Source: a virus. From it: a DNA stretch of 64,000 nucleotides. Location of the stretch: IMG/VR virus record IMGVR_UViG_3300030294_000017, positions 1 through 64,000 of that record; one strand, written 5' to 3'. Each line of letters starts with the position of its first letter. Positions within the stretch are counted from its first letter, which is position 1. The notes beneath the pieces are model-generated. The model was given only the letters and a program-made list of their open reading frames with translations. It searched no databases and was not told the DNA's origin. The position numbers were made by a program, and so were the translations under genes. Positions 51,801-60,805 of this stretch are shown one piece after another.

Positions 51801-52257
51801 AATATTGGCATCAAAAAAATTTGGTGAAACCAACTATTATAAACAAAAACAATTTAGTCAAAAATCTGATTTTTCCGATAATGCGGCTTTGACACAAATA
51901 GTTGAACTTCCACAAAAAAACGGGTTTGCTGAATGGGATAAGTATTTAATTGGCTCTGATACTTGTGGTGCATATCTTAAAATATTCCCACAACTAAACC
52001 GTTCATTATATGTTGGCTCTCAGATGTATAATAAAGGACTAACATTGAATAATTCATTGATCAAAATACCTATATTGTTTCAAACACGTATGACTGATTT
52101 TTTCGGTGCGGGTAACGATGGTTCAGGTAACATTGGTGGCATTGGAAGCATAGGAAATGTTACTTATTCTAAAAAGATAGGTATAGACATTGCTCAAAGA
52201 AGTGTTGAGGATTTATTTTCATTTGATATAACATTTACTAAAAGTTATCAGAAATAA
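48823..52257 (+). CDS. Large virion structural protein, 1144 aa
   Basis: Longest gene in the window. Beta-rich N-terminal half, a coiled coil at about residues 410-500 (QLESQIKEKYAEKEKIKTEI ... SKIESQIDDAYTKRKNLTAN), then a fibronectin-type-III-like piece (ETVEIRVRSISEVGYPIYAIVSDWAESVIVEFP), a second helix, and a Tyr/Asn-rich C-terminal part. No signal peptide. The features point to a baseplate-wedge or tail-fibre-network protein. Start AAAATAGTTATG. TAATG overlap with the RuvC-like gene. Confidence 0.72.
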   Translation: MAKNLTKGGMDKYLQELIRRDANGLNLIKVYAEMLFTSNEKVILTYTNEDSTESIYEIPSMAYLLSAVARVEKNFDNLSGIGILESSIILPDGTRRIILAQNTPKEPKTVVINAATVINAFDVEQYDVYQNLVTPKAFIPISLKPYFDKNVKSAVVRKIVITETNETKLTYFSNYIKNNIYKYNDLKSVLDGQAIYYKEVDYNVDVTPKMLKYSGNFDVVSYRKSIISDNQALVVGTMLYKIDSTSYVENNTGIKQSLKIGDQVVVNDSSGNKSTIYKIAFIDYDTFEISVQRIEGLDAVKIGVGTLSILGLYDEDIKAKIPIDINEMFAPFIKIVTNESLVSSNWGESKFIVTNTLIKDKVSFSDYFNANISDIRNGIKYLAAVNHTSLDDYIAPNTPSLLVSNFTVGVINKHKQEQLESQIKEKYAEKEKIKTEIASVDVSITNLKGKLFVETYDISRSKIESQIDDAYTKRKNLTANYQSIVSDLLATINTNGTFSPKYAIRGFFDIPSDVYTDEVNKIGAQGIIKFECEYRYLTVNKTSTNAQPTSYIDKNGNKVSATSTDWNKLLDLPQRFKVFNKDTGKSEWKNVVESNADEMSINEVMIPITENETVEIRVRSISEVGYPIYAIVSDWAESVIVEFPSDLVKNNQSIIQELSSDNFLSTLFQELQSIGLYEHLKDSSSSADQKFNHAAENISMNYFTPENKKMSVEQVVASMKEDISSIKANYLTQIGDIDIYIEDSNGNLITTIENESSVQIQAPYYRDQVEQLTDRKGKIINDTYYLVIRNKTNYDSNILSFVPGYYNKFLPTVDYNGYIRNASEYNQYRKYFLSPIGYSYYKETDNDYIAFKNSNPNLELPEYASMQAYGQLLYQRYMDFSLSEPLYTADEYNFLKLSGGAGAEDFIWNGSWDVDALFSPNGGGNNTSFAVHKLHPALGGNADIQVQPTNYKNLRTAIDSNGDNIYSNQTLGDFIPRYLKYNGNFIYPMFYQTILASKKFGETNYYKQKQFSQKSDFSDNAALTQIVELPQKNGFAEWDKYLIGSDTCGAYLKIFPQLNRSLYVGSQMYNKGLTLNNSLIKIPILFQTRMTDFFGAGNDGSGNIGGIGSIGNVTYSKKIGIDIAQRSVEDLFSFDITFTKSYQK

Positions 52258-52964
52258 TGGTTGAAACAGAAATAGTAAGTGTAGATTATTCACTTAATTC
52301 AACGGGTGTCACAATATATAATTGTGACACCAAATCACATAAATTTTTATCATTTGTAAATATATATAAGGATAAAAAAACTGAAAGTATAGCTGAAAGT
52401 ATAACGAATTATGTAATCGTTCAAAAATATCACAGACCACCAATCAAAGCGGTAAAATCACGAGTAAATGGATTGTCGGGTTGGGAAAAAGACCATATAA
52501 ATAATTGTATATCATATAACAGGCAATTATCTGATTTTATATGCATGCATGTTTCCAATGAAAACAGGAATATATTAGTTTTTGAGAATTATTCATATGG
52601 TTCTGCTTCTGATACTTTCATACAAATTATTGAAAACACAATGGAATTAAAGTCAAACCTTTTAAAAACCACATTTTTTGAAATGGATGATCTGTTTTTG
52701 GTAACAGCACCACAAGTTAAAAAATTTGCGGGTGGTGGTAATTTTGACAAGTACCAATTACTTATATCTTTTATTGCGTTGAAAGATGAAAATTTGACGG
52801 CTTGTGGCTTTCATAAACTTATGACTAATGACTGTGATAAGTTTGCATCGTTAAAAAATAAAAAGGGTAAGAGCGTTAATGAGGTTGCCAAGCCAATAGA
52901 TGATATAATTGACTCATTTTGGATAAACAAGTATTTCCAATTTTTCTTTAATGATTTTATTTAA
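52257..52964 (+). CDS. RuvC-like Holliday junction resolvase
   Basis: 235 aa with an RNase H-fold acidic set in RuvC order: VDYSLNSTGV (D10), LVFENYSYG (E110), the basic APQVKKFAGGGNFDKYQL segment and KPIDDIIDSFW (D215/D216, D219). It would resolve branched replication and recombination intermediates before packaging, the job done by endonuclease VII in T4. Its 3' end overlaps the convergent gene by 8 nt and forms one arm of a 20-bp inverted repeat. Confidence 0.82.
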   Translation: MVETEIVSVDYSLNSTGVTIYNCDTKSHKFLSFVNIYKDKKTESIAESITNYVIVQKYHRPPIKAVKSRVNGLSGWEKDHINNCISYNRQLSDFICMHVSNENRNILVFENYSYGSASDTFIQIIENTMELKSNLLKTTFFEMDDLFLVTAPQVKKFAGGGNFDKYQLLISFIALKDENLTACGFHKLMTNDCDKFASLKNKKGKSVNEVAKPIDDIIDSFWINKYFQFFFNDFI

Positions 52965-53325: not shown

Positions 53326-53895
53326 ATGAAAGATATAATTGATGCACTGCAATCCATTAGCACATCATTATTTGAACAGTTTTTACCTTTTTTTGAAATT
53401 GAAAATGGTAGAATAATGATGTACAGCCAAAAATTCCACATATCATTCATTATTGATAAAAGTGAAAATACTAATTATATACCTTATCATTTAACATGCT
53501 ATGATGAAAATAGTAAAATGGTTATATTATCTGTTAATAATAAAGAATTAAACGATTTAGAACTATTAAAACCTAAATTAATTAATTTTTTGAATTCTGC
53601 GGAAGAATTACAAAATAATATGAGTTCTAAATATGTTACACAATATATAGAAAGAGTAAAATATCTTTCTGATAATACTGAGTTTAAAAATATAGATAAA
53701 TATCAGGAATTTTTATTCAGCTGTGGTACTGATGATGGTATGCTATTTTCAATAAAAGGCACTGATATTTACATAAAAATTAAGGAATCCAAGGTTGACA
53801 TGTGTGTAATTAACAAATCACAAATATCTTACCTTAAACGTCAAAGAATATTAAAAATGTTATCGACATTAGTAAATACTTATATTTTTGGATAA
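53326..53895 (+). CDS. Hypothetical protein, 189 aa
   Basis: Mixed alpha/beta with IIDALQSISTSLFEQFLPFFEIENGRIMMYSQKFHISFIIDKS and FSIKGTDIYIKIKESKVDMCVI. Its start is 21 nt from the divergent start of the minus-strand gene. No domain recognised. Confidence 0.6.
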   Translation: MKDIIDALQSISTSLFEQFLPFFEIENGRIMMYSQKFHISFIIDKSENTNYIPYHLTCYDENSKMVILSVNNKELNDLELLKPKLINFLNSAEELQNNMSSKYVTQYIERVKYLSDNTEFKNIDKYQEFLFSCGTDDGMLFSIKGTDIYIKIKESKVDMCVINKSQISYLKRQRILKMLSTLVNTYIFG

Positions 53896-53899
53896 TAAA

Positions 53900-54322
53900 A
53901 TGGAAAATAAATTAAAGAAAGTTCTTGAGCTATGTGAATTCGTGGAACTTACAAAGAAAAATGTGCTAGTTTGGCAACCTGAAATAAATCATCACATAAT
54001 TGGTGAAACATTGGCGGGTAATGTCGGTGTGGTTGTATCAATTTCAGCATTGGCATATAAATTTAATAAATCAGACATTGTTTTTTATGGTGATATGTCG
54101 GGTGTGTTCGTTAAATTCAATAAGGAAAAATTCGTTTTGTTGGGAGAAAATGAAATACTTGGTAAAATATCAATTAAAGATGGTATGGTATGTAAACCAA
54201 TACCATATGTTGAAGATTTTGAAATTGGCAAAACAGACGATTGGCAAAAATATTTCGATGAATTGGCTATAACAAACGGTGCTCTTTTAACAGGCAATGA
54301 CTTAAACTTACAAATAGATTAA
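53900..54322 (+). CDS. Hypothetical protein, 140 aa
   Basis: ATG at 53900 (MENKLKKVLELCEFVELTKKNVLVWQPEI); a TTG at 53888 also lies in frame. Beta-rich middle (GNVGVVVSISALAYKFNKSDIVFYGDMSGVFVKF). No domain recognised. Confidence 0.6.
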   Translation: MENKLKKVLELCEFVELTKKNVLVWQPEINHHIIGETLAGNVGVVVSISALAYKFNKSDIVFYGDMSGVFVKFNKEKFVLLGENEILGKISIKDGMVCKPIPYVEDFEIGKTDDWQKYFDELAITNGALLTGNDLNLQID

Positions 54323-54326
54323 CATT

Positions 54327-54614
54327 ATGGAAACTGATGTATTAAAAATCACACCAAGGATATTAAAAAAGACTCATAAAAACTTAATGATTATTGAGGC
54401 TAGTTTTATATATTGTAAAAGACATGGTTTAGATGAAGAAAATTTTATTGAGGACACTTTTATGACTGATGATTTTAGTAAATCCGAAGAAATAGAATTT
54501 GACAAAATTTGTAACGACTTAAGAGGTTTTAGAGGATGTCTTGGAAACTATGAACTTAGGGAAATATCTGTGGAAGAATATGAATTGTGTGTTGATAAAT
54601 TTGGTGCAGAATGA
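54327..54614 (+). CDS. Hypothetical protein, 95 aa
   Basis: Acidic and helical (LMIIEASFIYCKRHGLDEENFIEDTFMTDDFSKSEEIEFDKICNDLRGF). Overlaps the ABC-GNAT gene by 4 nt (ATGA), so the two are probably made together and could act together. Confidence 0.62.
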   Translation: METDVLKITPRILKKTHKNLMIIEASFIYCKRHGLDEENFIEDTFMTDDFSKSEEIEFDKICNDLRGFRGCLGNYELREISVEEYELCVDKFGAE

Positions 54615-55780
54615 GTAAGATAAATCTTGAGCATGAAATAATCAATGACGAATATACAGAATATGTTTATTCAACGTTTGATATACAAGACTCTGATAAA
54701 ACATCAACCGAAATCATTTTTGATTTATCAGAAATGAATGAGTCTGATTGGAACATTGGAATAATACTTGGAAGCAGCGGTTCGGGTAAATCATCGATAT
54801 TAAGATCAATTGGTAACATACCTGATGTAAAGTTTGATACTAACAAGGCACTTATAAGTAACTTTAATTTCTTAGACCCAAAAGAAGCTACATTTGCTTT
54901 AACATCTGTTGGGCTTTCATCAGTTCCCACATGGCTAAGACCTTTTCATTTACTTTCAAATGGTGAACAATACAGAGCAAAATTAGCCTATCTAATTGCA
55001 TCATCAAAAGATGGTGAGATAATACTCATTGACGAATATACATCGGTTGTTGATAGATATGTTGCAAAGTCCATGTCATTCGCAATACAAAAATATGTAA
55101 GGAAATTAAACAAAAAGATAATAATTGCATCGGTACACTATGATGTGTTAGAATGGTTATTACCTGATTGGTCTGTTAATCTTCAAAATGGAGGCATGTC
55201 CAAAAGACATGACTGCCGAAGGCAAGGAAGACCTAAAATTGACTTGCAAGTCTATAGAACAGAGCCTAATACTTGGGAAATCTTTAAAAAACATCATTAT
55301 CTAACCTCGGAATCTAACAAGGGCTTCGGATATCTTGTATTTGTATGGGATGACATTCCTGTTGGAATATGTGTTTATAAAACTTTCCCAACGGGTAACT
55401 TTCCCAACGGGTATGCACTCAGCAGAACTGTTGTACTTCCTGATTTTCAGGGTATGGGTATAGGCAAATCAATTTCTGAATTTACAGCGGGAATAATAGT
55501 TCATAATGGTGGGAGATTATTTACAAAAACTATAAACCCCGCACTTGGCGAACACCGCAATAAATCACCGCTTTGGAGAGGTACTAGTAAGAATGGCAAA
55601 TACAGAAGCGATATAGATTATGGTAACAGTATTTATAAAAGAAGAATGATGAAAAAAGTACTTTCTAGAACCTCTTATTGCCATGAGTACATAGGCAAAC
55701 CAATTAGTGGACACGATGAATTACTATTACCTATAAAAATTATGAGAATACAAAAGAAACAAAAATTATCAATATTTTAA
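54611..55780 (+). CDS. ABC-ATPase fused to GNAT acyltransferase (Mom-like candidate)
   Basis: 389 aa, two domains. Residues 1-200: ABC ATPase with Walker A GSSGSGKSS (K60), signature LSNGEQYRAKLAYLIA (116-130), Walker B IILIDEYTSVVDR (137-149) and H-loop ASVHYD (H176); no membrane segment. Residues 209-360: GNAT fold, RPKIDLQVYRTEPNTWEIFKKHHYL, VGICVYKTFP, acyl-CoA loop VLPDFQGMGIGKSISEF, then INPALGEHRNKSPLWRG. The end block resembles SHPALixHRxRSPLWR in a bacterial and phage ABC-GNAT family related to phage Mu Mom, which modifies adenines to resist restriction. A DNA-modification role is therefore inferred; tRNA or protein acylation cannot be excluded. Confidence 0.8.
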   Translation: MSKINLEHEIINDEYTEYVYSTFDIQDSDKTSTEIIFDLSEMNESDWNIGIILGSSGSGKSSILRSIGNIPDVKFDTNKALISNFNFLDPKEATFALTSVGLSSVPTWLRPFHLLSNGEQYRAKLAYLIASSKDGEIILIDEYTSVVDRYVAKSMSFAIQKYVRKLNKKIIIASVHYDVLEWLLPDWSVNLQNGGMSKRHDCRRQGRPKIDLQVYRTEPNTWEIFKKHHYLTSESNKGFGYLVFVWDDIPVGICVYKTFPTGNFPNGYALSRTVVLPDFQGMGIGKSISEFTAGIIVHNGGRLFTKTINPALGEHRNKSPLWRGTSKNGKYRSDIDYGNSIYKRRMMKKVLSRTSYCHEYIGKPISGHDELLLPIKIMRIQKKQKLSIF

Positions 55781-55784
55781 TATT

Positions 55785-56219
55785 ATGGTAAAATGTATAG
55801 TTTGCGGAAAAGAAATAGAGGAATCTCATTATAGGGATGAAGTTCCCGTAATGTGTGGTGATAAGTGTTTTCATATTAATTTTTGGAATGAGAAAGTTAA
55901 AAGCTACGGAAATGGTACAAACGGGTACTCAAAAAAAATAGCCATTGTTAATGGTAGCCATTATACTTTTTATCCTGATAGTAGTGAAACGTTTTTTCAA
56001 GGTCATGGCGGAAGACAGTTTAAAATCATATTTAACGATGGTCGTATTGTTCAGACAAAAAACCTTTGGCATCAGGGTGATATACCATTAAATTTTAGAA
56101 ATTTATTACCCGATAATGCAATATTTGTTGAATCAGATGAAGCCATTGAAAACAGAAGAAAACATAAAGAATTAATGTCAAAATTAAGGACTATACGAGT
56201 AGAATCTAAGGATATTTGA
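55785..56219 (+). CDS. Zinc-finger phage protein, 144 aa
   Basis: N-terminal zinc pairs CIVCGKEI ... VMCGDKCFHINFWNEKV, then a beta domain SKKIAIVNGSHYTFYPDSSETFFQGHGGRQFKIIFNDGRIVQTKNLWHQGDIP. This two-part layout recurs in phage hypotheticals. It follows the ABC-GNAT gene by 4 nt and might be a partner. Confidence 0.68.
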   Translation: MVKCIVCGKEIEESHYRDEVPVMCGDKCFHINFWNEKVKSYGNGTNGYSKKIAIVNGSHYTFYPDSSETFFQGHGGRQFKIIFNDGRIVQTKNLWHQGDIPLNFRNLLPDNAIFVESDEAIENRRKHKELMSKLRTIRVESKDI

Positions 56220-58769: not shown

Positions 58770-59267
58770 ATGAAGAAATTAAAAATTTTTGAAGGTTATA
58801 ACATAAATAGTGATGATACAATTTTAGAATCACATGGTGATTATTGGGTTGACCCTAATAATGGTAATAAATGGAGTAAATCCAAATATGAAAAAGGAGA
58901 AGCAACATATATCAGTACGAAGTTAAAGAACTGTACCAATTGTATAGATACGGCAGGTAGTACAAATTGCAAAGACTGTGTGAATTGTATACAATGTTCT
59001 GATTGTGCTAATTGTATAGATTGTGATTTTTGTAAAAATTGTACTGATTGTACTGATTGTCAACACTGTAATGATTGTAAAAATTGTATTAAATCTGACC
59101 ATTCCAAAAATTGTACTAATTGTGAAAAACTTGGTCAATATTCTTTAGCTGACAGAGGTTGTACCAATTGTACCAATTGTACCAATTGTTATTCGTGTAA
59201 AGATTGTAAAGATTGTAAAGATTGTGGTAATCAATCGGGTGTTAGCGGTGTTAGCGATGTTAATTAA
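58770..59267 (+). CDS. Cys-rich CxxC-repeat protein with MKKLKIFE propeptide-like N-terminus, 165 aa
   Basis: Begins MKKLKIFEGYNINSDDTILESHGDYWVDPNNGNKWSK. From about residue 51 it becomes a ladder of C-x2-C/C-x-x-C units (NCKDCVNCIQCSDCANCIDC, then NCTNCTNCYSCKDCKDCKDC), with over 35 cysteines. The DNA shows runs of TGTACCAAT and TGTAAAGAT units. Such a ladder could form a metal-loaded or disulphide-linked helix. The shared N-terminal peptide suggests it may be packaged in the head. It stands directly behind a virion gene. Confidence 0.7.
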   Translation: MKKLKIFEGYNINSDDTILESHGDYWVDPNNGNKWSKSKYEKGEATYISTKLKNCTNCIDTAGSTNCKDCVNCIQCSDCANCIDCDFCKNCTDCTDCQHCNDCKNCIKSDHSKNCTNCEKLGQYSLADRGCTNCTNCTNCYSCKDCKDCKDCGNQSGVSGVSDVN

Positions 59268-59866: not shown

Positions 59867-60805
59867 ATGTTATCATACAAAGGTAGTAAGCAGCAAAATG
59901 CTGATTTTATTGTTTCTGAATTCAAGCACAGATTTCCAAATTCAGAAGTATTCATAGATTTATTTGGTGGTTCAGGCTCTGTGAGCTATTATGCCTCTAA
60001 ATACTTTGATAAAGTTTTGTATAACGACATACAAAAAGATGTACAGCTTACTGTTGAAAGTATATTCAATGGAACATTTTATACATCATTAGCAATAACT
60101 GAATTTATATCAAGAGAGCAGTTTTTTAAATCTAAAGATGCTCATGAAACTGTTAGAGATGGATTAATAAGGTCTGTATTTTCATACTGTGGTGATTTAC
60201 TAACTTATGGATACCACACAGACAAGGAAAAATTAACTGAATGTTTTCATAATATAGTTGTAAATGAAACTATTGATGAAAAGGATTTAGATTATATTTT
60301 TACGTTTGATGGCTTTGAAAAATGGATGCCCGAAAAATTTGATATTCTGAAAGATTTAACTAATTTAAAAACCTTGGAATTAAAAAGGTCTTATATCAAA
60401 AGGTTTAATAAATTTAGGCTTGTGCATATAGAGAAATACAATGGCGTTAAAAATGTGGAACTGAATGATGATTTAAAAAAGATTCAGTATTCTAATAAAG
60501 ATTATCGTAATATTAAACTAGTTAAAGATTCAGTAATTTACTGTGATATACCATATAAATCCAAGAAATCTCATTATAATGGTATAGGTTTTAATTATGA
60601 TGAATTCTTTCAATGGATGAAAGACAACAGCGATTATAATATATTCTACTCTGAATATGGAGAAAATATATCGCCTGACTTTCCCGCTGCCTTTGAATTT
60701 TCTAAGAACCATTCAATAGCTAGAGAATATAGAGAATTAAAAAGAGAGGTTTTCTGCTGTACAGAAGAAACATTTAGTAGAATTAATAATCTATCAATTT
60801 ATTAA
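59867..60805 (+). CDS. Dam-like DNA adenine methyltransferase
   Basis: 312 aa. N-terminal YKGSKQQ and FIDLFGGSGSVSYYASKYF (SAM motif I), YNDIQKDV, then the catalytic motif near the C-terminal third as VIYCDIPYKSKKSHYNG (DIPY, a variant of DPPY), and FFQWMKDNSDYNIFYSEY. Alpha-class D12-family order. It methylates adenine N6 at an unknown site. It is the second orphan methylase of the window. The Pro-to-Ile change in the catalytic motif merits a test of activity. Confidence 0.83.
   Translation: MLSYKGSKQQNADFIVSEFKHRFPNSEVFIDLFGGSGSVSYYASKYFDKVLYNDIQKDVQLTVESIFNGTFYTSLAITEFISREQFFKSKDAHETVRDGLIRSVFSYCGDLLTYGYHTDKEKLTECFHNIVVNETIDEKDLDYIFTFDGFEKWMPEKFDILKDLTNLKTLELKRSYIKRFNKFRLVHIEKYNGVKNVELNDDLKKIQYSNKDYRNIKLVKDSVIYCDIPYKSKKSHYNGIGFNYDEFFQWMKDNSDYNIFYSEYGENISPDFPAAFEFSKNHSIAREYRELKREVFCCTEETFSRINNLSIY

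Follow-up and report, generated by a model that had tools for sequence, protein, structure and literature searches.

Architecture of the window protein

We analysed a stretch of 64,000 nucleotides, called the window throughout, which covers positions 1 to 64,000 of the IMG/VR virus record IMGVR_UViG_3300030294_000017; the whole record has 90,251 bases and is possibly a fragment. The subject of this study is a gene of the window in which an ABC ATPase domain is followed by a GNAT acyltransferase domain (Table 1), and whose product may modify the bases of phage DNA in the manner of the Mom protein of phage Mu.

The preliminary description of this DNA had placed both domains in one soluble polypeptide with all the ABC catalytic motifs, and this is borne out. 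The protein is encoded in a single frame as a plain in-frame fusion, as are the near relatives L004-L026, and reaches the Pfam cut-offs for both ABC_tran (25.3 bits, cut-off 25) and Acetyltransf_1 (22.5 bits, cut-off 20.7), while the match to PHROG 11143 spans residues 3-364 (E 3.7e-124). AlphaFold2 models the whole protein as two folded domains with a predicted local distance difference test (pLDDT) score of 91.4, and the GNAT part alone with 90.2. In an alignment of the window protein with 89 fused relatives that are 30-60% identical to it (mean column identity 40%), the residues of the Walker A, signature, Walker B and H-loop motifs are conserved as given in Table 1, those of the D-loop are likewise invariant or at least 90% conserved, and F225, Y230, R272, P277 and G281 of the GNAT domain are invariant. 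This conservation of catalytic residues in both domains supports the reading of the protein as an enzyme. The conserved motifs together with the confident two-domain model rule out a chance open reading frame (ORF).

Table 1. Features of the ABC-GNAT gene and its two neighbours in the window
Feature	Position	Strand	Basis
ABC-GNAT fusion gene, 389 amino acids, PHROG 11143	54611..55780	+	ORF, Pfam, PHROG, AlphaFold2
ABC ATPase domain, residues 1-200	54611..55210	+	Pfam ABC_tran; ABC-cassette fold match Z 14.7, many tied
Walker A GSSGSGKS, residues 54-61	54770..54793	+	G54, S56, G57, G59, K60 invariant (90 sequences)
ABC signature LSNGE, residues 115-119	54953..54967	+	S116, G118 invariant; L115, E119 at least 90%
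Walker B and catalytic Glu, ILIDE, residues 138-142	55022..55036	+	D141, E142 invariant
H-loop His176	55136..55138	+	Invariant (90 sequences)
GNAT acyltransferase domain, residues 208-362	55232..55696	+	Pfam Acetyltransf_1; GNAT fold Z up to 12.7, tied
HHYL motif, residues 228-231	55292..55303	+	Y230 invariant; H228, H229, L231 at least 90%
Acyl-CoA binding loop QGMGIG, residues 280-285	55448..55465	+	G281 invariant; Q280, G283, G285 at least 90%
ORF of 95 amino acids, overlapping the fusion gene by ATGA	54327..54614	+	Homologues in L002, L003 only
ORF of 144 amino acids with CxxC...CGDKC (zinc-ribbon or treble-clef-like)	55785..56219	+	Weak matches only (Pfam, PHROG, NCBIfam)

An ABC transporter finds no counterpart at this locus, since the model consists of the ABC and GNAT domains only, with no transmembrane domain, and none of the nine other genes scanned between 52.2 and 60.8 kb matches a permease family of Pfam. 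In fold searches the ABC half matches many ABC cassettes, with the top matches tied at Z 14.7, and the GNAT half matches many GNATs at tied scores from Z 12.7 to 11.3, RimI and NatD included. The top match of the protein among predicted viral structures is a protein of Leptospira phage LE4 (E 8e-34).

A family already predicted to modify DNA

The window gene is not new in kind: it belongs to a kind already predicted, represented by PHROG 11143 and by the work of Iyer et al. COG2401 is likewise described as an ABC-type ATPase fused to a predicted acetyltransferase; its name appears in none of the papers listed in a literature search. To our knowledge, no function has been tested for the ABC-GNAT architecture and no member has been assayed for acylation of a DNA base. 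Iyer et al. 2021 (PMC7824862) predict that the ABC ATPase-GNAT architecture acylates a DNA base, with Tenacibaculum phage pT24 as the example, thereby citing and extending the prediction of Iyer et al. 2013 for GNAT systems coupled to ABC ATPases. Among 62 phage-collection records it is pT24 that gives the top match to the window protein (54.6% identity over 385 residues), and the order of the domains is identical. The two differ in the GNAT part, where the sequence deposited for pT24 is interrupted by an in-frame TGA (L082 6760-6762), whereas the fusion in the window is intact; a sequence error, a nonsense mutation or recoding are all conceivable for this TGA.

A first viral scan gave 90 confirmed relatives, and a profile scan gave at least 594 in viral contigs and 441 in bacterial and archaeal genomes, from which the best 80 of each set were examined more closely. 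Several phage records annotate the two parts separately, as "ABC iron siderophore transporter" and "hypothetical protein". Term searches in published papers gave no hit in PMC8670742, nothing on ABC-GNAT genes in a study of Porphyromonas phages (PMC10367356), and no ABC-GNAT function or frameshift in PMC7641849, PMC10853773, PMC8705779, PMC11318856 and PMC10885494.

Gene context shared with Mom

Two sister Porphyromonas phages carry Mom and ABC-GNAT genes in the same genomic slot. In phage015a a Pfam Mom protein (E 5.9e-56) lies between a tail gene and the right end, and in phage008a the same slot holds two small ORFs, one of them annotated "acr candidate", then the ABC-GNAT gene and a Formyl_trans_N protein, followed by the right end. 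Around the exchange the phages are closely similar: the identity is 84-95% for three tail proteins and 66% for a protein between them and the exchange, the left-flank DNA has two stretches with 86-88% identity (3109 bp, 86% identical, and 2657 bp), and the right ends share 82% identity over 93 bp. A comparable position is seen in Pseudomonas phage Komp_PAO1_1, a Mu-like phage with Mu Gam-like and transposase genes, in which the pair of ABC-GNAT and formyltransferase genes comes after the tail-fibre genes; in phage Mu, mom is located downstream of the tail-fibre and invertase genes. The Formyl_trans_N gene overlaps the end of the ABC-GNAT gene in two loci (L130 3846-4319 and L132 3837-4454; one from a Porphyromonas and one from a Pseudomonas phage), which suggests a second modification step in these two transposable-type phages.

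A second link to Mom comes from a small partner gene. In six of six phage loci, chosen because a gene overlapping the ABC-GNAT start was seen there, this gene matches ParB_N (E 3.5e-4 or better), and in three of the six the match is above the Pfam cut-off. In Microbacterium phage Bush a ParB_N gene overlaps Mom instead, and it is homologous to several of those found beside ABC-GNAT: its protein and the ParB_N protein beside ABC-GNAT in Gordonia phage Jace share 57-61% identity over 92-117 residues, and BLASTP from it also reaches, at E 1.8e-5 or better, the proteins of Javan141, Pmp13 and Oenococcus unk162. ParB_N is also found near Mom in Arthrobacter phage Shade. We then surveyed the family with a model built from the six phage proteins and that of Bush, scanning up to 3 kb upstream, with upstream DNA that is short at some loci. 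Of 80 loci from bacteria or archaea, 64 gave a ParB_N gene, as did 4 of 7 fused phage loci and 4 of 6 two-frame phage loci of Gram-positive hosts, and none of the four loci with an in-frame stop did so. The partner is thus common in the ABC-GNAT family but not universal, and hence not a defining feature.

Weighing a Mom-like role

The exchange of Mom and ABC-GNAT at one locus and the ParB_N partner shared with some Mom genes support a Mom-like role, and the position of the gene in Komp_PAO1_1 and the prediction of Iyer et al. 2021 speak for it as well. We propose, with a probability of roughly 60%, that the window protein is a soluble enzyme in which the ABC ATPase drives or gates the GNAT domain, and which camouflages the phage's own DNA against restriction by acylating one of its bases, being Mom-like in function without being Mom. 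From this context we infer DNA as the substrate, the acyl group, the presentation of the base and the evasion of restriction. The Mom-like DNA modification put forward in the preliminary description thus gains support from gene context, which its suggestion of Mom ancestry does not. The exchange and the shared partner make the published prediction of 2013 and 2021 specific and testable on named isolates: Leptospira biflexa phage LE3, Gordonia phage Jace (host Rhodococcus erythropolis) and Nonlabens phage P12024S have intact fusions, and Lactococcus phage P335 is a two-frame member. What is added here to that prediction is the gene context for a Mom-like role and, for a sister clade, a site of predicted recoding, described below.

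Several observations weigh against this proposal. The exchange is a shared cargo slot in one phage pair, where unrelated accessory genes could be accommodated as well, and the slot of phage008a is in fact also occupied by the formyltransferase and the two small ORFs. Aeromonas phage PX29 carries both genes (GU396103.1 53227-54078 and L339 732-1616), and Mom and ABC-GNAT are therefore not strict substitutes. The ParB_N gene was found in 4 of 106 fused viral contigs, which are the window's own group, and in 0 of 44 loci of the clade with a T9 run described below. Pfam gives no ParB_N match in the 90,251-base record of the window, and in this the window differs from other members of the family, which often have the partner. 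The ParB_N protein of Bush matches that of LE3 with E 0.15 only, and that of MismyG is not reached by BLASTP at E 1. As for the protein itself, neither the whole sequence nor its GNAT part is listed for Pfam Mom (PF25680, cut-off 27.1 bits) at E up to 1, and when five family GNATs are compared singly with the profile of 10 diverse Moms, the E values are 0.024 for the window (probability 2%), 0.063 for Jace, 0.075 for L060, 0.55 for phage008a and 0.7 for L144, with the RimI control at 0.69. RimI matches the family GNAT profile with E 6.9e-9 and 2.4e-5 in the two directions, much better than the Mom comparison, and the closest solved folds of the GNAT half are generic GNATs that include the peptide acetyltransferases RimI and NatD.

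Further comparisons bear on ancestry. Among 73 family members one is listed for Pfam Mom (E 0.04), and a profile comparison with close Mu Moms gives a probability of 0.1%. Counted in favour of the proposal is the comparison with 10 diverse Moms, in which the family GNAT profile gives E 8.4e-5 and a probability of 60%, collinear over 103 columns, with HHY placed over HY and SR.VVLPD over LNRMWLHDD, so that the HY and R..D motifs of the two families align. Mom is itself described as a GNAT-type enzyme in PMC7824862. The aligned Mom proteins differ from the window protein in having no ABC domain and in having no canonical acyl-CoA loop at the place where the window GNAT has QGMGIG. The sequence INPALGEHRNKSPLWR, quoted earlier as a Mom-type ending, is not the end of the protein, since 66 residues follow it, and it is conserved within the ABC-GNAT family (P310 and W322 at least 90%) but not in the alignment of the 10 Moms, whose aligned region lacks it; we therefore reject it as a C-terminal Mom motif. 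Descent from Mom by way of this motif is also unsupported by Pfam Mom, which is not reached, and by the weak profile comparison. Judged by its sequence, the window GNAT is fairly canonical, with at most weak similarity to Mom, and the protein should therefore not be filed as Mom. The Mom structure 8bv8 is not among the 50 matches listed in the fold search of the GNAT model, a listing that says nothing either way; a search for Mom across the record of the window gave no match, with the positive controls silent as well.

The fold matches raise the alternative that the GNAT domain acetylates a protein, such as host RNA polymerase, a ribosomal protein or another host factor, with the ABC part serving to target or regulate it. 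Among solved structures, the top fold matches are generic or peptide N-acetyltransferases (RimI 5isv and NatD 4ua3, tied at Z 12.3), the match of RimI to the family profile agrees with this alternative, and PMC7824862 describes acetylation of RNA polymerase by a phage GNAT. The preliminary description had named a structural match to a tRNA or peptide acetyltransferase as an outcome that would speak against its proposal; matches to RimI, NatD and others are nominally such an outcome, but they are tied and generic and so do not discriminate. Acetylation of a protein would moreover give no reason for the Mom locus swap or for the shared ParB_N partner, and we consider it rather unlikely.

The substrate could also be RNA, either tRNA or rRNA, acylated so as to protect translation or tRNAs from host defences. 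The RNA cytidine acetyltransferases, which pair an ATPase with a GNAT domain, offer an analogue. A sequence search of the PDB with the ABC part places the ABC-F protein ExpZ first (E 7.6e-8), and 9 of 73 GNAT domains touch Pfam GNAT_acetyltr_2 at E up to 1 (best 0.0013). The ABC matches are nevertheless broad, extending over transporters, Rad50, UvrA and ABC-F proteins, and the gene context points to DNA. We consider RNA acylation very unlikely.

A further alternative is that the ABC-GNAT gene is accessory cargo of unrelated function, for instance defence against other phages, that merely shares a slot with Mom. Cargo slots of phages are varied, as the small ORFs beside it in phage008a illustrate, and ABC-protein models of PADLOC match weakly (mad3, E 2.1e-9). 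The best mad3 stretch, however, covers residues 109-174 only, that is, the ABC motifs, and ABC-GNAT has the ParB_N partner in common with Mom regardless of the slot. We regard this explanation as distinctly unlikely and retain DNA-base acylation as the preferred function.

Relatives with the GNAT domain in the -1 frame

Both domains were found in 300 locus-strands, 216 of them fused in frame (196 distinct). In 50 distinct loci the GNAT domain is read in the -1 frame relative to the ABC gene; in four loci an in-frame stop separates or interrupts the parts, and the +1 arrangement is found in none. One further locus, L100, was removed as degraded; in this IMG/VR contig of 193,180 bases the T9 motif is retained and the ABC frame is split into several pieces.

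In one clade, 33 of 35 representatives (less than 90% identical) have the sequence GGTTTTTTTTT, with a run of nine T (T9), at the same distance from the stop of the ABC frame; in L101 this stop is 12 nt later and the distance was matched after realignment. The two exceptions keep the same codon register, with A AAT TTT in L071 and G GAT TTT in L052. The pattern GG-T9-GTCCGACCA is conserved at the ABC/GNAT junction in L050-L081 and L086-L124 (for example, L054 5559-5578). The 32 loci L050-L081 were gathered by protein similarity and are partly redundant; their domains are always in different ORFs, and only L052 and L071 are without T9. The loci L086-L124, L294-L300 and L301 were gathered via the T-run pattern itself, which biases any share of T9 that includes them. 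For most relatives with the -1 arrangement, the ABC frame terminates inside the DNA for the HHYL motif.

In 46 of the 50 loci the allowed stretch contains an in-frame heptamer of the form X XXY YYZ; at the rate found in the rest of these ABC genes (113 of 10,637 codons), 17% would be expected. The loci are related and do not represent 50 independent events. Separate lineages have their own heptamers, A AAG GGC in Oenococcus phage unk162 and A AAA AAG in Enterococcus phage 9184; that of P335 (A AAA AAT) sits late, and L052, L125, L127 and L129 have no perfect heptamer. The classes of A AAA AAG, U UUU UUU and A AAU UUU are listed among the most efficient heptamers in Escherichia coli in PMC4066793.

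Analysis of the third codon positions of the ABC frame reveals that their diversity falls from a mean of 0.54 upstream of the run to 0-0.11 within it. Past the ABC stop the GNAT frame has a coding pattern (0.26/0.16/0.49), and between T9 and the first GNAT-frame ATG both frames are similarly constrained (ABC frame 0.188/0.274/0.282), neither standing out. A scan for T8 to T12 before GTCCGACCA gave 35 hits, 34 of nine-T length (one of them, L301, counted by match length alone) and one T10 (L295), with no other length. The T10 sequences (L027/L028 and L295, two distinct relatives) read in frame as plain fusions and nest within the T9 clade in a quick tree (Shimodaira-Hasegawa-like approximate likelihood ratio test 99 for the clade, lower inside), which was built without the window's own sequence and includes several near relatives from L004-L026. 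Folding 17 sequences jointly gives a consensus of -7.45 kcal/mol with 15 pairs and 0 compensatory changes, which lends no support to an RNA stimulator downstream of T9.

The conserved site in these relatives appears, on the pattern of the sequences, to be a programmed frameshift or slippage site. The same joined product could alternatively arise if the RNA polymerase slips on T9. Phase variation or assembly noise at the T run is unlikely, the length of the run being constant. A different account of the two-frame relatives is that the GNAT part is translated separately by termination and reinitiation, with no frameshift fusion, or that the T run acts as a switch for phase variation. In 42 of 44 T9-clade loci the next available start codon is 14 codons past the beginning of the GNAT domain and near the ABC stop, the four loci lacking a perfect heptamer fit separate translation, and the GeneTack study classes clusters of ABC transporters with a frame transition as translational coupling (PMC3711429). 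Conversely, in 45 of the 50 loci the open frame of the GNAT part has no ATG, GTG or TTG at or before the start of the domain, even though homology in this frame reaches upstream of the first start codon. The fixed length of T9 speaks against a switch, and both variants are countered by the A AAT TTT retained in the same register in one exception and by the T10 relatives, which are plain fusions nested in the T9 clade. Thus, separate translation or a switch seems unlikely, and we favour the frameshift or slippage site.

A published case of a frameshifted ABC-GNAT gene was not found in our literature searches, and the unnamed ABC-transporter clusters of PMC3711429 could include the family, so that it may have been detected earlier under that label. 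The arrangement resembles bacterial -1 programmed frameshifting and slippage, in which one gene likewise gives a short ATPase and a long form. An example of such frameshifting in bacteria is dnaX. Transcriptional slippage is exemplified by Shigella mxiE, according to PMC5009743. This likeness is predicted for the relatives, and the window gene itself is unshifted.

One clade appears to maintain a slip site, and hence the covalent link between ATPase and GNAT, or else a defined proportion between free ABC and ABC-GNAT, is probably important. If confirmed, the site would show the covalent link between ATPase and acyltransferase to be under selection, provide an extra non-structural example of phage recoding and explain the separate annotation of the two parts in several phage records.

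Proposed mechanism

In the mechanism that we propose, two ABC domains would pair on binding ATP, as ABC cassettes do, and so make an ATP-gated clamp. The clamp would bind or scan phage DNA and present a base to the GNAT domain, which would take an acyl group from acyl-CoA via the QGMGIG loop and transfer it onto the base; candidates for the active site are H229, Y230 and R272. Hydrolysis of ATP would then release the clamp, and the acylated base would shield the DNA from restriction. The coupling of the ATPase to acyl transfer we infer with the help of the -1 frame arrangement in the relatives. In the many relatives that have it, the ParB_N partner probably gives specificity for DNA or nucleotides.

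A more elaborate version, which we put forward only tentatively and hold to be less probable than not by some distance, regards the enzyme as an ATP-gated replacement of Mom that makes an undescribed base, with the ratio of ATPase to acyltransferase set by -1 frameshifting in a large phage clade. The shift would take place at a fixed slip site, which in that clade is U9 or A AAU UUU; in other phages it would be A AAG GGC or A AAA AAG. The clamp on the DNA would be built by the ABC protein in its free form, a minority of ABC-GNAT subunits would do the chemistry, and in the transposable-type phages the adjoining formyltransferase may extend the added group, for example by N-formylation of a glycyl-like adduct.

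Neighbouring genes in the window

The ATGA coupling of the fusion gene to the 95-amino-acid ORF, and the cysteine-containing (zinc-finger) ORF that follows it after a gap of 4 nt, are as the preliminary description had them. The three-gene module suggested there is unsupported, and rejected as a candidate, because homologues of both neighbours are confined to L002 and L003, which have identical proteins; the loci compared have limited, often short flanks. Searches of Pfam, PHROG and NCBIfam at the limits applied gave no match for the 95-amino-acid ORF.

Other genes of this region include a D12-class adenine-specific DNA methyltransferase (59867-60805; PF02086, E 3.6e-13) about 4 kb downstream of the fusion gene, and a cysteine-rich protein of 165 amino acids with many CxxC repeat units (58770-59267). 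Two genes upstream of the fusion lies a GroES/Cpn10 match (53888-54322; 22.0 bits, Pfam cut-off 21.1), and a RuvC-like resolvase match (52257-52964; PHROG 159, E 2.2e-11) comes immediately after an ORF of 1144 amino acids.

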